Below, piece after piece: positions 43,703 to 48,943 of a DNA stretch of 64,000 nucleotides; position 1 is the stretch's first letter, and each line of letters opens with the position of its first letter. The stretch is taken from positions 1-64,000 of the forward strand of contig NZ_CAJYGK010000061.1 in NCBI RefSeq assembly GCF_913773725.1, in the 5' to 3' direction. The notes beneath the pieces were generated by a model that was given only the letters and a program-made list of their open reading frames with translations, searched no databases and was not told the DNA's origin. A program made the translations under genes and the position numbers. Source of the stretch: an uncultured Aquabacterium sp. Its GTDB lineage: Bacteria; Pseudomonadota; Gammaproteobacteria; Burkholderiales; Burkholderiaceae_C.

Positions 43703-46477
43703 TCAGGTGGCGTCCGCCAGTGCGGCAGACAGTGCGGGCACCCCACCCATGCCGACCACGGGCAGCCACAGCACCACGGTCGTCCCCACGCCGAACTGGC
43801 TGGTCAGCATCACCTGCCCGCCGTGCAACTCGATGATCTCTTTGACGATGGTCATGCCCAGCCCTGTGCCCGGGATGTTGCCCGACGTGTCGGCACGGAA
43901 GAAGCGCTCGAACACCCGCTCCAGCTGGTCGGGCGTCATGCCGATGCCGTGGTCGGTGACGTGAATGCCGCACTCGCGCGAGCCCGCCTGATCCCGCCAC
44001 AACAGGGACAGTTCGATGGCACCGCCGCCCGGCGAGTACTTGTAGGCGTTGGACAGCACGTTGGTCAGCGCCAGCGACAGCTTTTCGCCGTCGACATCGA
44101 CGAGGATGGGCTGCGCGGGCAGACTGAAGTCGACCTTGCGCGGGTCGTTGTGCACCAACAGACCGGCCAGCGTGCCCTCGATGATGGGCTGCAGGACCTG
44201 CTTTTCCCGTTTGAAATCCTTGCCACGGCGCGACTCGATCCGGGCCAGATCCAGCAGTTCGTTGACCAGGTTGATCAGAATCTGCGCCTGCCTGTGGATG
44301 GTCGACAGCATGTCGTTGCGGCGCTCGTCGTTGAACTGGCGCTTGAGCAGCAATTCCGTGAAGCCGAAGATGCTGGCCATCGGCGTGCGCAGTTCATGGG
44401 CCGCGATCGACAGGAATTCGCTCTTCATGCGATCCACCTCGCGTTCGTGGGTGACATCGCGGAAATACAGGGCCGTCTCGTTGTCGTGCCCGCCGTGTCG
44501 CACGCGCCGGCTCAGGGTGCGCTTGCAGGGGGTGTGCAGGTGCAGCAGCTCGCGCGCGCCCGACAACCGGCCGTCGCCATCGCTGCCCGGCAGATCATTG
44601 ACCGTGCCCGGATCGGTCTCGACCCACTCGCATCGCAGCATGAGCTGCTCTTCGAGCGCGTCCATGGATTGCCCGACCAGGTCGGCCGCCAGCAAGCCGG
44701 TCATGCGCTCGAAGGCCGGGTTCACGATGCTGACCTCGCCTCGCTTGTCGAGCACCACGAAGCCATCGGGACTGAGGTCGAACACGGCATTGAGCCGTTC
44801 TGTGCGCAGGTGCAGCACCTGCTCGGCGGCAATCCGGTCGGTGATGTCGCTCTGCACGCCGACGTAATGCGTGAGCACGCCTTCCGCATTGAGCACCGGC
44901 GAGACCGCAAGTTCGTTGTAGAACAGGCTCCCATCCTTGCGGTAGTTGCGCACCACCACCTGGCACGGACGGCCTTCCCGGATGGCCGCACGCATGGCAT
45001 GGATGCCGGGCTGATCCGTGTCCTGACGCTGCAAGAGGTTGCAGTTGAGCCCCAGGATCTCGTGCGCCTCGTAGCCTGTGATCTTCTCGAACGCCGCATT
45101 GACGTAGATGACCGGCTGGTTCGGCAGGGTCATCGAGGCGATCACCACCCCATCGGCCGAGGACGCCAGTGCACGATCCCGCAGCAACAGCTCCTGTTCG
45201 GCCCACTTGGCATCGGTCGTGTCCCGCACGATGAAGGTCTGGATCAGCTCCCCATCGAGCATGACCCGGCTGGCCGACACCGCCACCGGAAAGGCCGTGC
45301 CCTCGTTGCGCAGCCCCGTGGTCTCATGACCCAGCACCCGGTTCGAAAACCCGTGACAGGCAAACCAGTCGTCCAGACCCTCGGCGGACAGGGTGGGCAG
45401 CACGCTGCCGATGGGCTGCCCGATCAGCACCTCTGGCGGGCGTCCGAAAATGCTCGTGCTGGCCTGGTTGCACCAGCGCACCACGCCCTGCACATCGACC
45501 AGCACGATGGCGTCGGCCGCCGCGTCCATCACCGCCTGATTGCGCGATTGCGTGCGCTCCAGCTCTGCGGCCATCTCGCTGGCCATGCGGGCGGCGCGAC
45601 GGCGGGTCGAGATCAGCATCAGGTAGACATGCAGCGCTGTCAGCGTGCAGACCAGCCCGAACAGGGCGGCGCTCCACACGCTGGCATGCCGCCACACGCG
45701 CGCCCATCCGCTTCGATCGGGCTCACGCCCCTCCAGGGTGAGCGTGACCGGCTCACCGGCCAGGGTGAGCCGCATCGCGCGCTGCCATCGCATCTCGCTG
45801 CCTGGCGCGGCCGGATAGGCCGCACCCCGGACACCGCCAGGCACGTCGTTCAAGGACACGCTCTCCTGACCGAACAACTTCGCCCGGAATCGCCATGCCC
45901 CCTCGGGCAGCCTCACCGGCAGGAGCACACCATCGGTCAGGCGGGACACCACCCAGCCACGCCCAGCCGGCAAGGCCGCCACAAGAAAGCGCGAGGACGA
46001 TGCACCGCCGGTGGCCGGCGGACACAAGACGCCCGATGAGCGGTGAGCCTGAAGCAGACAGGCTGCCAGGGCCTCAGCCTCCGCCTGCGGGTAGCCGGTC
46101 AGCCGGACCAGGCTGGCGGGCGACGCGGCTTCGGCGGGCACCCGGTGCAGCTGAGCGGCCGACCAGCTCTCATGGGCATTGTGGGCGCTGCCCGACGCGA
46201 ACCACGCTGCTGCCTGTTCCGTCAGGGCAACACGCTGGGTGAGTCGGTCCTGAACCAGCATCTGCAGGCGGGCGGCATCGGCCTCGAATTCATGCGCCGT
46301 GCGCTCGGCCTCGATCTGCCAGACCGTCCACACCGCGGCTGCCGTCAGGCCCGCGCCGATGACCCCGATCAGGCCCATGGCATGGCCCAATGGAATCCGA
46401 CCCGTCAGCCGCTCCAGCCCCATGATGAGCCGCTCGATCGGCGCCGGCAGCTCGACAGGATCGCGTCGGTCGTTCAT
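43703..46477 (-). CDS. Membrane sensor histidine kinase with PAS-LOV-PAS sensor array
   Basis: A 924-residue kinase. Two transmembrane helices (about 29-51 and 265-289) bracket a periplasmic domain of about 210 residues. Then come PAS1 (about 308-420), a LOV-type PAS (about 431-546), PAS3 (about 555-675), HisKA with H694 in IAAHELRTPMASIFG, and an intact HATPase (N-box N810 in TNVLSNAYKYS, G1 TDHGIGM, G2 GTGLGMTIV). The LOV calls: GLNCNLLQ with the photo-adduct cysteine C479, NYRKDGSLFYNEL and GVQSDIT holding the flavin glutamine. It likely senses blue light plus a periplasmic signal. It is the last gene of a four-gene minus-strand operon. Confidence 0.88.
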   Translation of the reverse strand: MNDRRDPVELPAPIERLIMGLERLTGRIPLGHAMGLIGVIGAGLTAAAVWTVWQIEAERTAHEFEADAARLQMLVQDRLTQRVALTEQAAAWFASGSAHNAHESWSAAQLHRVPAEAASPASLVRLTGYPQAEAEALAACLLQAHRSSGVLCPPATGGASSSRFLVAALPAGRGWVVSRLTDGVLLPVRLPEGAWRFRAKLFGQESVSLNDVPGGVRGAAYPAAPGSEMRWQRAMRLTLAGEPVTLTLEGREPDRSGWARVWRHASVWSAALFGLVCTLTALHVYLMLISTRRRAARMASEMAAELERTQSRNQAVMDAAADAIVLVDVQGVVRWCNQASTSIFGRPPEVLIGQPIGSVLPTLSAEGLDDWFACHGFSNRVLGHETTGLRNEGTAFPVAVSASRVMLDGELIQTFIVRDTTDAKWAEQELLLRDRALASSADGVVIASMTLPNQPVIYVNAAFEKITGYEAHEILGLNCNLLQRQDTDQPGIHAMRAAIREGRPCQVVVRNYRKDGSLFYNELAVSPVLNAEGVLTHYVGVQSDITDRIAAEQVLHLRTERLNAVFDLSPDGFVVLDKRGEVSIVNPAFERMTGLLAADLVGQSMDALEEQLMLRCEWVETDPGTVNDLPGSDGDGRLSGARELLHLHTPCKRTLSRRVRHGGHDNETALYFRDVTHEREVDRMKSEFLSIAAHELRTPMASIFGFTELLLKRQFNDERRNDMLSTIHRQAQILINLVNELLDLARIESRRGKDFKREKQVLQPIIEGTLAGLLVHNDPRKVDFSLPAQPILVDVDGEKLSLALTNVLSNAYKYSPGGGAIELSLLWRDQAGSRECGIHVTDHGIGMTPDQLERVFERFFRADTSGNIPGTGLGMTIVKEIIELHGGQVMLTSQFGVGTTVVLWLPVVGMGGVPALSAALADAT

Positions 46478-46546
46478 GGCCTGACTCCTGTGCCCGACGA
46501 GCGGGCGGCAGCGGGGCAGCGATCGCGCCCCGATGGGACGACACGC

Positions 46547-46924
46547 TCAGGCTACGGTGGCGACCATCGCCTCCACGCGCTCGATCAGCTCCAGCGGGCT
46601 GAAGGGCTTGACCAGATAGGCATCGGCACCCGCGCTTTCGCCGGCGGCCAGGTCGGTGGCCTGTCCCCGCGCCGTGAGCATCACCACCTGGATGGCCTTG
46701 AGGTCGGCATCCTGCTTGATGCGCGTGCACACCTGGTAGCCGTCCAGCAGGCCCGGCATCATCACGTCGAGCAGCATCACGGCCGGCCGGATGGCGCGGG
46801 CCATGGCGAGGCCCGACTCGCCATCGTGTGCTTCATGGATTTCGAAGTCGCCGAACTCCAGCGTCATGCGAATGAGCTTGCGGATGTCCGCCTGGTCTTC
46901 CACGATGAGGATGCGATGGCCCAT
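46547..46924 (-). CDS. Single-domain CheY-like response regulator
   Basis: A 125-residue receiver domain with all active residues: acid pocket E9-D10 (VEDQADIRK), phospho-acceptor D53 (LLDVMMPG), T84 (MLTA) and K106 (LVKPF). There is no output domain, so it must act by protein contact. It lies between the pseudo-kinase gene (39 bases upstream) and the LOV kinase gene (69 bases downstream) and is the natural partner of the LOV kinase. Confidence 0.95.
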   Translation of the reverse strand: MGHRILIVEDQADIRKLIRMTLEFGDFEIHEAHDGESGLAMARAIRPAVMLLDVMMPGLLDGYQVCTRIKQDADLKAIQVVMLTARGQATDLAAGESAGADAYLVKPFSPLELIERVEAMVATVA

Positions 46925-46963
46925 GATGGTCTCCTGTGCGTTTTCGACGGCCGGGCCGGGAGG

Positions 46964-48073
46964 TCATTCCCCTTTGCCACCGGCCAGATTCACCTTCTTG
47001 CTCATGCTGCGAGCCAGCAACTCGGACATGTCCTTGGCATAGCGCTGCGCCTGCTCGACCGACAACTGTGCGTCTTGCGTTGCGGGCGCTCCCGCCGGAA
47101 TCTCGAGCACGAAGTCCACGCCATCGAAATCGTCCTCGATGCGCACCGAGCCGCCGTGCTGTTCCAGGATGCGCTGGCTCAGCGCCAGCCCAATGCCTTG
47201 ACGCGTCCCCGGCTTGGGTGAATCCCCCACGCCGAAGGGCACATAGGCGCTGCGCCGTTCATGGTTGGACACGAACAGGCCCTGGTTGCGCGCCCGCACC
47301 ATCACCCGAGTGCCGACGGCCTGGACGGCCAGGTTGATCAGCCCACCCGGCTGGGCGCTGCGGATCGACTGCTCGAGGTACTCCGACACGGCCTTGCCCA
47401 GCCAGTGCACACTGCCATAGACCGGCGGCAACTCTGTGTCGAGGCCATGGGTGGCGATCGTCACATTGCGCGCGTCCGCCAGGTGGATGACCTCGTCGAG
47501 CGCCTTGCGCAGCAGATCGGGCAGCAGGATGCGCTCGTCGCGCCGGATGGCACTCGCGCCGAAGACATTGACGAGGTCATGCAACTTGCCCAGCTTCACC
47601 GACAGTCCCGCTGCCTCATCGGCCAGCGCATGCAGCTCGGGCCCCGCCCCGGGACGGGACAGCATCTGGCCGATGGCCGGCAGCTTGCCAGCCAGGGTCT
47701 GGATCGGCTGCGCCATCTCGGCATCGATGTAACCGATCAGGTTTTCCAGCGCCTGCGAGTACCAGCGTTCTTCCGACACGTTGTTGAGCACCACCATCAG
47801 GTCGTTGCCCACCGGCGCGTTGATCACGACGGCCCGGATCGAGTCGGGGTGCGCCTCCTGCGTCGTCAGCTCGAACTGGAAAGGCAGCGTGAGCATGTTC
47901 TGGCCGGCGGCCTTCACCGTGCGCTCGGCCACAGGGTCCATCATGGGCTGCCCGAGCATCACCGGGGTCATCTGCACCGCCGCCTTGTTGGCATAACGGA
48001 CCACGCCGTTGCGCTGCACCCAGACCACGCCACTCTTGACCTGGTCGAACAGCATGCGGAATGCGTCGTTCAT
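46964..48073 (-). CDS. PAS protein with degenerate histidine-kinase core (pseudo-kinase)
   Basis: A 369-residue protein with no transmembrane segment. It has an N-terminal PAS domain (about 5-100), a HisKA-like helix where the phospho-acceptor His is replaced by Ala118 (YIDAEMAQPIQTL instead of SHELRTPL), and a HATPase-like domain whose N-box Asn is Gln235 (SEYLEQSIR) and whose G1 box lacks the Asp-x-Gly pattern (RARNQGLFV). The G2 box GTRQGIGLALSQRILEQHGG is intact. It can hardly autophosphorylate and may bind the kinase or the receiver as a modulator. Confidence 0.82.
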   Translation of the reverse strand: MNDAFRMLFDQVKSGVVWVQRNGVVRYANKAAVQMTPVMLGQPMMDPVAERTVKAAGQNMLTLPFQFELTTQEAHPDSIRAVVINAPVGNDLMVVLNNVSEERWYSQALENLIGYIDAEMAQPIQTLAGKLPAIGQMLSRPGAGPELHALADEAAGLSVKLGKLHDLVNVFGASAIRRDERILLPDLLRKALDEVIHLADARNVTIATHGLDTELPPVYGSVHWLGKAVSEYLEQSIRSAQPGGLINLAVQAVGTRVMVRARNQGLFVSNHERRSAYVPFGVGDSPKPGTRQGIGLALSQRILEQHGGSVRIEDDFDGVDFVLEIPAGAPATQDAQLSVEQAQRYAKDMSELLARSMSKKVNLAGGKGE

Positions 48074-48094
48074 GTCGTGCCTCGCCTTCGTGTT

Positions 48095-48784
48095 TCAGCC
48101 GGCGTGCTGCCCCAGGAGGTGCCGTCCCACCCTGACCGCGACCGCCTCGGGCGTGACCGGCAGCCTCATCAGTTCGGCACAGGTCGGCAGGCCACCTCGC
48201 CGCGCAATCTCGTGGTCGCTGGCTGCGCTCAGCACCAGCACGCGCATGCCGGCCATCTGTTCGCACCGCTCCAGCGTCCGGAGCATGCCCATCCCGTCCA
48301 TGCCGGGCAAGTCGAGATGGGTCACCAGCAGATCCGGCACGCGCTGGCCGATCTGCAGCAGCGCCAGGTAACCTGTCTCCGCCGTGCGCATGTGCACCGA
48401 AGGGCCGAACGGCAGCAGCGCGTGCTCGCAACGCTGCTGCCACGCGGTGTCGTCGGCCACCAGCAGCACATCCAGCGGGCGCGTGCCCTTCACGGCATCG
48501 CGCGAGGCGGGGGCCGCCGATTGCGTCTCAGGCACCGCGGCCAGCGCGGCCTGGCGCTGAGCCAGCGCGCGCGGCACGGGCTCGCCACCCAGGCCGGTGC
48601 TCAGGGCCAGCGCCTCGACGGCGTTGTGGGGAATGCGCCGGTGTCCGCCCGGCGTGCGGGCCGCCGGCAGGATGTCGGCCTCCACCCACAACTGCACGGT
48701 GCGCAAGGACACACCCAGACGCAGCGCCGCCTCGCGGGTCGTCAGCATGCGGGCACCCGGGCCCAGAGGAATGACTTGAGACAT
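48095..48784 (-). CDS. MerR/BldC-type HTH protein fused to a degenerate receiver domain
   Basis: A 229-residue protein. Residues about 13-53 form a winged HTH of the MerR/BldC/excisionase kind (LTTREAALRLGVSLRTVQLW, ending TPGGHRRI). Residues about 105-220 are a receiver fold with the acid pair D111-D112, but the phospho-acceptor position holds H156 (VTHLDLPGMDG, Asp two places late at D158) and the conserved Lys before Pro is Leu208 (MRLPV). The start is ATG 48784 with GGAG upstream; GTG 48811 is an alternative. First gene of the operon and its likely DNA-binding output. Confidence 0.85.
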   Translation of the reverse strand: MSQVIPLGPGARMLTTREAALRLGVSLRTVQLWVEADILPAARTPGGHRRIPHNAVEALALSTGLGGEPVPRALAQRQAALAAVPETQSAAPASRDAVKGTRPLDVLLVADDTAWQQRCEHALLPFGPSVHMRTAETGYLALLQIGQRVPDLLVTHLDLPGMDGMGMLRTLERCEQMAGMRVLVLSAASDHEIARRGGLPTCAELMRLPVTPEAVAVRVGRHLLGQHAG

Positions 48785-48943
48785 GGGGGAAGACTCCGTC
48801 GCACGGTTCACCGGCTCTCAGATGGGATGTCGGCAGGTATTTCATTTTTTCGAGATGCCGGTGTGAAGGACAGCCCCCGCGCCGTGCTGAAACACCCGCT
48901 CAGCGTGAAGAAGTCGCGTTTGCCGCCCTGTGTCGCGATTCGG

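Follow-up and report, generated by a model that had tools for sequence, protein, structure and literature searches.

The operon and its four proteins

The window analysed here is a stretch of 64,000 nucleotides from an uncultured Aquabacterium sp., and our subject is an operon on its minus strand (positions 43703-48784; all features below are on this strand). It consists of four genes separated by 21, 39 and 69 bases, in agreement with the gaps of 21-69 bases originally predicted. In gene order they encode a helix-turn-helix (HTH) protein with a degenerate receiver, a pseudo-histidine kinase, a CheY-like response regulator and a membrane histidine kinase containing a LOV domain. Pfam and NCBIfam assign them, respectively, HTH_17 and Response_reg; HATPase_c and a weak PAS_8; Response_reg; and three PAS stretches with HisKA and HATPase_c.

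The membrane kinase (43703..46477) has 924 residues and the architecture PAS-LOV-PAS-HisKA-HATPase_c. A simple hydropathy scan predicts two membrane helices, at residues 34-52 and 271-289, which flank a presumably periplasmic segment of 218 residues to which Pfam assigns no family; together these form the N-terminal sensor (45611..46378). The first PAS domain (45203..45526) was located by Pfam, and its limits are those used in the comparison of domain conservation given below. The third (44483..44800) has its best Pfam stretch from residue 560, with its end taken from the same comparison. The LOV domain lies between them (44810..45187, residues 431-556). Among solved structures, residues 438-555 best match LOV-FixL fusions and 'sensory box' proteins, several of them titled chimeric LOV-histidine kinase (E 3.9e-33 for the best stretch). 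The motifs on which the original prediction was based are exact, namely C479 in GLNCNLLQ (codon 45041..45043), which is the presumed flavin-adduct cysteine, N511 in NYRKDGSLF, and Q542 in GVQSDIT, to which N521 can be added. With these motifs and relatives, the assignment of the second PAS domain as LOV is upheld. Eleven stretches in the window's genome match the LOV profile at E <= 1e-6, and only the operon kinase has C, N, N and Q together (1/11). The kinase core (43757..44428) is intact, with H694, N810, D842 and GTGLGM; in a 72-row alignment the phospho-histidine is kept in 72/72 rows, and the other boxes (N, G1 and G2) in every row without a gap there. On sequence grounds, it is strongly predicted that the window kinase is a light sensor, in which these residues would support a flavin photocycle.

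The window's genome also contains one BLUF-domain match (L129), a second possible blue-light sensor. A link to photosynthesis was considered and rejected: apart from the BLUF domain, the genome gives no match to reaction-centre proteins or to the phytochrome PHY domain, and no phototrophic role is therefore assumed.

The pseudo-kinase (46964..48073) is modelled as a PAS domain, a helical hairpin and a degenerate ATPase-like lobe (predicted local distance difference test, pLDDT, 79.3; predicted template modelling score, pTM, 0.61), and its conserved C-terminal helix QAQRYAxD is a mark of the family. In the alignment, Ala (A118, codon 47720..47722) occupies the position of the phospho-histidine, so that a kinase fold, as given by a moderately confident model, is combined with the absence of the phosphorylated residue. 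This is not peculiar to the window: the histidine is missing in 82/84 rows that have a residue at the site, with A, D, S, T and others in its place, and only loci L084 and L089 have His, which bears out the original description as a pseudo-kinase. The ATP-site Asn is also gone in the window's clade, while other clades retain parts of the site. A Foldseek search with the model returned histidine kinases, among them the DivL pseudokinase. The CheY-like protein (46547..46924) is a single-domain response regulator in which E9/D10, D53, T84 and K106 are all intact, and the same acids, Asp, Thr and Lys are intact in 80/83 loci, the exceptions being two gaps at Lys and one Ser for Thr.

The HTH protein (48095..48784) starts at an ATG whose Met aligns with that of most relatives in the Aquabacterium clade; an alternative GTG start would extend it to 48095-48811. 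It has an excisionase/MerR-type DNA-binding domain (48608..48748; Pfam HTH_17, 1.4e-11) and a receiver (48122..48469) whose fold is clear in the model (pLDDT 86.4). With its HTH domain, a role as transcriptional output is plausible. The receiver lacks the residues of a phosphorylatable one: the ED pair reads A-D, the phospho-Asp position holds H165 (numbered from 48811), and the Lys is replaced. The original prediction of a pseudo-receiver and of partly non-phosphorylated partners holds within the Aquabacterium-Sphaerotilus clade, where the first acid (Glu elsewhere) and the Lys are gone in 19/19 proteins and the Asp in 16/19. It does not hold outside this clade, where ED, D and K are intact in 48/48 HTH-receivers (second copies counted).

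Such second copies occur in Rhodoferax and other Comamonadaceae, where a second, divergent HTH-receiver adjoins the module in loci L109, L111, L115, L117, L122 and L123, accompanied in L109 by a further kinase and a chemoreceptor gene. In three Rubrivivax loci (L075, L076 and L083), a further receiver protein comes after the HTH-receiver, which lies next to a second PAS kinase and, in L076, also next to an HD-domain gene.

The operon is flanked upstream by greB-like and relA/spoT-family genes and downstream by a VTT-domain gene. Between operon and greB there is a conserved element, CTCG(A/C)AAAAATGAAA (48840..48854), seen as a footprint across the Aquabacterium clade, and a second conserved upstream block is found around TTGTTCACG in Aquabacterium relatives. 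A search of the genome for the first element gave one exact match, which is the operon's own, and one site with one mismatch. The element is therefore probably just the operon's own promoter or operator, and is a candidate autoregulatory site.

Conservation of the module and decay of the LOV domain

Relatives were sought with the pseudo-kinase as query in 200 genomes of the window's family (E <= 1e-5, with the best 10 candidates per genome scored). Matches were obtained in 169/200 genomes, but mostly to other kinases; beyond the window's genome there are at least 11 clear relatives in at least 10 genomes, covering most of the length of the pseudo-kinase or its kinase-like part. A profile scan of a GTDB-based collection gave 88 relatives, of which 80 were kept. 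Gene neighbourhoods were counted over 83 loci, picked by the pseudo-kinase alone and extending, for the GTDB-based collection, at most about 8 kb each side. The CheY gene comes after the pseudo-kinase gene in 79/80 loci with room for it (in two of them at 823 and 999 bases), and the two genes overlap by 4 bases in 26/81. A kinase matching the PAS-HisKA core profile follows in 64/68 loci with room, and in 44/57 the stretch also holds an HTH-receiver, at any position and on either strand. All 19 Aquabacterium-Sphaerotilus loci read preserve the order HTH, pseudo-kinase, CheY, kinase. The genes are thus conserved together, as the original prediction required, and judged by these counts they are a real betaproteobacterial module.

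Most of the named carriers belong to the Betaproteobacteria (Aquabacterium, Sphaerotilus, Rubrivivax, Piscinibacter, Ideonella, Roseateles, Curvibacter, Rhodoferax, Thauera, Zoogloea and others); the remaining records have broad labels such as Proteobacteria, and one metagenome-assembled genome (MAG) is labelled Gammaproteobacteria. Within the window's genus, 20/42 genomes (its own included) match the pseudo-kinase at E <= 1e-20, one of them with just 27% identity, so about half of these genomes either lack the module or have one that escaped the search. Of the named loci, L049 is the nearest; it comes from a MAG labelled Aquabacterium olei and has a pseudo-kinase 96% identical to that of the window. 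Ten neighbour proteins in the Rubrivivax locus L076 and the Comamonadaceae locus L109 comprise further kinases, an HD domain, peptidases, CorA and a methyl-accepting chemotaxis protein, and did not include a common target.

The LOV residues are much less constant than the module. They were counted in the 68 modules of a tree made from pseudo-kinase and CheY, from which L098 was left out because of split open reading frames. Cys, both Asn and Gln are present in 22/68 modules, the window included; Gln alone is missing in 21/68; Cys is kept without the Asn and Gln in 2/68; and Cys is absent in 23/68. In 22 of these last 23, Gln and at least one Asn are also gone, the exception being L085, which keeps both Asn (W/N/N/L, in the order Cys, Asn, Asn, Gln). 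Four further module kinases (L089, L091, L092 and L120) have no LOV match at all; L092 comes from a metagenome bin labelled Bordetella parapertussis, a label that may well be wrong.

On this tree there are at least five changes of Cys state (5-5 over bootstraps) and eight of Gln, and on a kinase tree from which the LOV part was excluded (69 rows, L098 included) there are six of each. The first tree was made carefully and the second quickly, both with long-branch warnings, and the counts are minima. Both were rooted at the midpoint, and change counts alone do not separate gain from loss. In each tree, however, complete LOV domains lie on either side of the deepest split, which makes an ancestral LOV domain with repeated loss the simpler reading. 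The losers include genomes of isolates (Sphaerotilus hippei DSM 566 and Curvibacter delicatus NBRC 14919), so the loss is not merely an artefact of MAGs. The two rows of the sister lineage read F/L/N/H (Sphaerotilus) and C/N/N/Q (L063).

No Cys-less row of the 68 keeps Gln. Outside the tree, L098 does (F/N/N/Q), so the order in which Gln goes first holds as a tendency, with exceptions. L098 is from Piscinibacter aquaticus, and its pseudo-kinase and kinase frames are both split, by sequencing error or by decay. Tests on independent pairs for loss of Cys together with Asn or Gln gave medians of 0.125 to 0.5, with only five pairs, for which 0.05 is unreachable. LOV proteins free of Gln can still signal, according to a study of such receptors (PMC9098866), and the 21 modules lacking only Gln may therefore be working photoreceptors.

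In several Cys-bearing clades, LOV is more strongly conserved than the PAS domains beside it. In eight rows of the Aquabacterium clade with Gln, conservation of LOV is 76%, compared to 71 and 70% for the first and third PAS domains; in six Cys-bearing rows on the Rhodocyclaceae side, the values are 65 versus 30 and 47%; and in the Cys-bearing Rubrivivax group that lacks Gln, 73 versus 62 and 57%. In the Cys-less Curvibacter/Rhodoferax clade (15 rows) the domains are level, at 61 versus 61 and 59%.

A signalling model and its alternatives

The original prediction saw the operon as a converter of blue light plus a periplasmic cue into transcription. Homologs lacking Cys but keeping the rest, named beforehand as evidence that would refute it, make up the 23 modules described above. 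The operon is often kept where the LOV pocket has decayed, and light is therefore not its conserved job; the Cys-less homologs do not refute a working LOV domain in the window. The periplasmic cue fares no better as a conserved input, given that the N-terminal sensor shows clear similarity only within the Aquabacterium clade, and that no membrane helix is predicted in the kinases of L071, L090, L093 and L118. The operon has the appearance of a general signalling circuit, and light, one of its inputs, can be lost.

We propose a model built on the features read from the DNA: the four genes, the LOV residues, an intact kinase and CheY, a pseudo-kinase without His, a degenerate receiver, co-conservation, and repeated LOV erosion. 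The membrane PAS-LOV-PAS kinase would autophosphorylate and hand its phosphate to the adjacent CheY, a transfer suggested by intact partners sitting side by side. Phosphorylated CheY (CheY~P) would not be the output itself; most likely it is read by the co-encoded pseudo-kinase, in the way that DivL reads DivK~P, because almost all loci link the pseudo-kinase with CheY and its fold is the kinase fold seen in DivL. The complex of pseudo-kinase and CheY~P would set the activity of the HTH-receiver, the presumed transcriptional output. Within the Aquabacterium clade, that HTH protein lacks the usual phosphorylation site and so would have to be controlled by binding. Blue light would be one input tuning the kinase; it is kept in the window, whereas elsewhere it was lost on several occasions and the module persisted. 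We give this whole model, from kinase to HTH output with light as a losable input, an even chance of being correct.

Several observations weigh against it. The structural model of the pseudo-kinase is only moderately confident, DivL takes ranks 20 and 27 among many kinase-fold matches in Foldseek and not the top, and the window protein has Ala where DivL has Tyr. An HTH-receiver was not found in 13/57 loci with room, and perhaps it is not an obligatory partner. A regulon was sought via CTCG(A/C)AAAAATGAAA sites in the window's genome, and none was found. In LOV domains the residue after the adduct cysteine is usually Arg, and Asn480 departs from this; Cys-bearing relatives vary at that position. 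Sphaerotilus has the spoT-greB flank of the window and yet has lost the LOV residues. LOV conservation, as judged from these alignments, is not a clean marker of function: in the Cys-less pair L072/L073 LOV is above its neighbours (97 versus 92 and 90%), and in Cys-bearing Piscinibacter and in the Roseateles group it is only level with them.

The strongest alternative is that kinase and CheY form an ordinary photosensory two-component system in which CheY acts elsewhere (on motility, cyclic di-GMP or another kinase), and that pseudo-kinase and HTH protein make up a regulator of their own, which only happens to share the operon. It gains from L079, L110 and L125, where pseudo-kinase and CheY occur together and no such kinase follows within the stretch read (in L110 a kinase of this type is upstream), and from the HTH gene, which shifts position or was not found, as in the 13 loci just mentioned. 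We consider it rather unlikely, since the near-constant linkage of pseudo-kinase to CheY (79/80) and the 4-base overlap (26/81) argue for joint work, and since 19 Aquabacterium-Sphaerotilus loci hold all four genes in one order.

A second alternative is that the domain senses flavin redox state or oxygen first and light second, in which case loss of Cys would be a change of input and not a loss. Flavin reduction can elicit a response from natural LOV-like proteins without the Cys (PMC4682037), and LovK is described as sensing both light and redox state (PMC6530869). However, 22/23 Cys-less modules have also lost one or both of the Asn that contact flavin, which suggests lost flavin binding and not a new use of flavin; L085 is the exception, and L098, excluded for its split frames, would add another. 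This makes the redox reading unlikely. The least probable alternative, that LOV is vestigial in the window too and the kinase senses a signal at its N-terminal part or at another PAS domain, draws on the repeated Cys changes, the four kinases without a LOV match and the F/L/N/H of Sphaerotilus, and is improbable because the window, L049 and L050 all keep the four residues, because LOV is 95% identical between window and L049 (first PAS 83%, third PAS 94%), and because, in the Cys-bearing groups compared, LOV ranks first in conservation among the three PAS domains or shares that rank with one of the others.

Relation to known systems

A description of this light-linked module of conserved composition was not found in the literature searched, which left out supplements and most subscription papers. 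The LOV domain has its best matches in the short LOV proteins of Pseudomonas putida, engineered LOV-kinase fusions derived from these, and the fusion 4gcz, with all of which it shares Cys, Asn and Gln. In 4gcz the LOV part presumably comes from YtvA. These proteins either stand alone or are artificially fused to the FixL kinase, whereas here the LOV domain is part of a natural membrane kinase with several PAS domains. The P. putida origin of the matched proteins is taken from the abstract of PMC13322254. EmbRS of Rubrivivax was rejected as a name for the module, because it has a LuxR-type regulator and a different kinase with ten helices (PMC3684757).

The 21 modules that keep Cys and both Asn but have Leu, Ala or Ile for Gln resemble the natural glutamine-deficient LOV receptors of PMC9098866. 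Among the window's relatives, Aquabacterium commune has Ala at the Gln position and Rubrivivax gelatinosus has Leu. The modules differ in that the protein tested there is a diguanylate cyclase from Mesorhizobium, and the window keeps its Gln; the available part of that paper names no betaproteobacterial kinase operon, its supplementary list being outside our scope. The relatives of the window show one photoreceptor domain complete, Gln-less or Cys-less in the same kinase and operon, and such a decay series allows a direct comparison of the natural need for the LOV Gln, and of how a kinase behaves after loss of its light input. A fuller reading, which we put forward tentatively as a possibility, would be a light circuit that works by proteins reading one another, from LOV kinase to CheY to a dead kinase binding CheY~P to a transcription factor whose receiver is dead in this clade, together with a series in which Gln tends to go first and Cys and Asn next, so that light is repeatedly switched off and the circuit kept.

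Among described LOV kinases paired with a single-domain regulator, the nearest that was found is LovK-LovR of Caulobacter crescentus (PMC6530869). There too, the gene for a LOV histidine kinase adjoins that for a single-domain regulator without a DNA-binding part, and for this reason control of transcription must pass via further proteins in both cases. However, LovK is soluble and of the HWE/HisKA_2 type, whereas the present kinase is a membrane protein that combines three PAS domains with a HisKA core, and its operon also encodes a pseudo-kinase and an HTH-receiver.

For the pseudo-kinase, the parallel is DivL-DivK of Caulobacter (PMC5361649; PDB 4q20), in which a PAS-bearing pseudo-histidine kinase of similar fold partners a single-domain regulator. 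DivL binds DivK~P and leaves its phosphorylation unchanged; for the present pair, binding is suggested by analogy. At the His site DivL carries Tyr, and the text available describes no operon shared with DivK, whereas here the residue is Ala and both genes are in one operon. Together, the pseudo-kinase and pseudo-receiver may provide another example, in addition to DivL, of a dead kinase that reads a response regulator.

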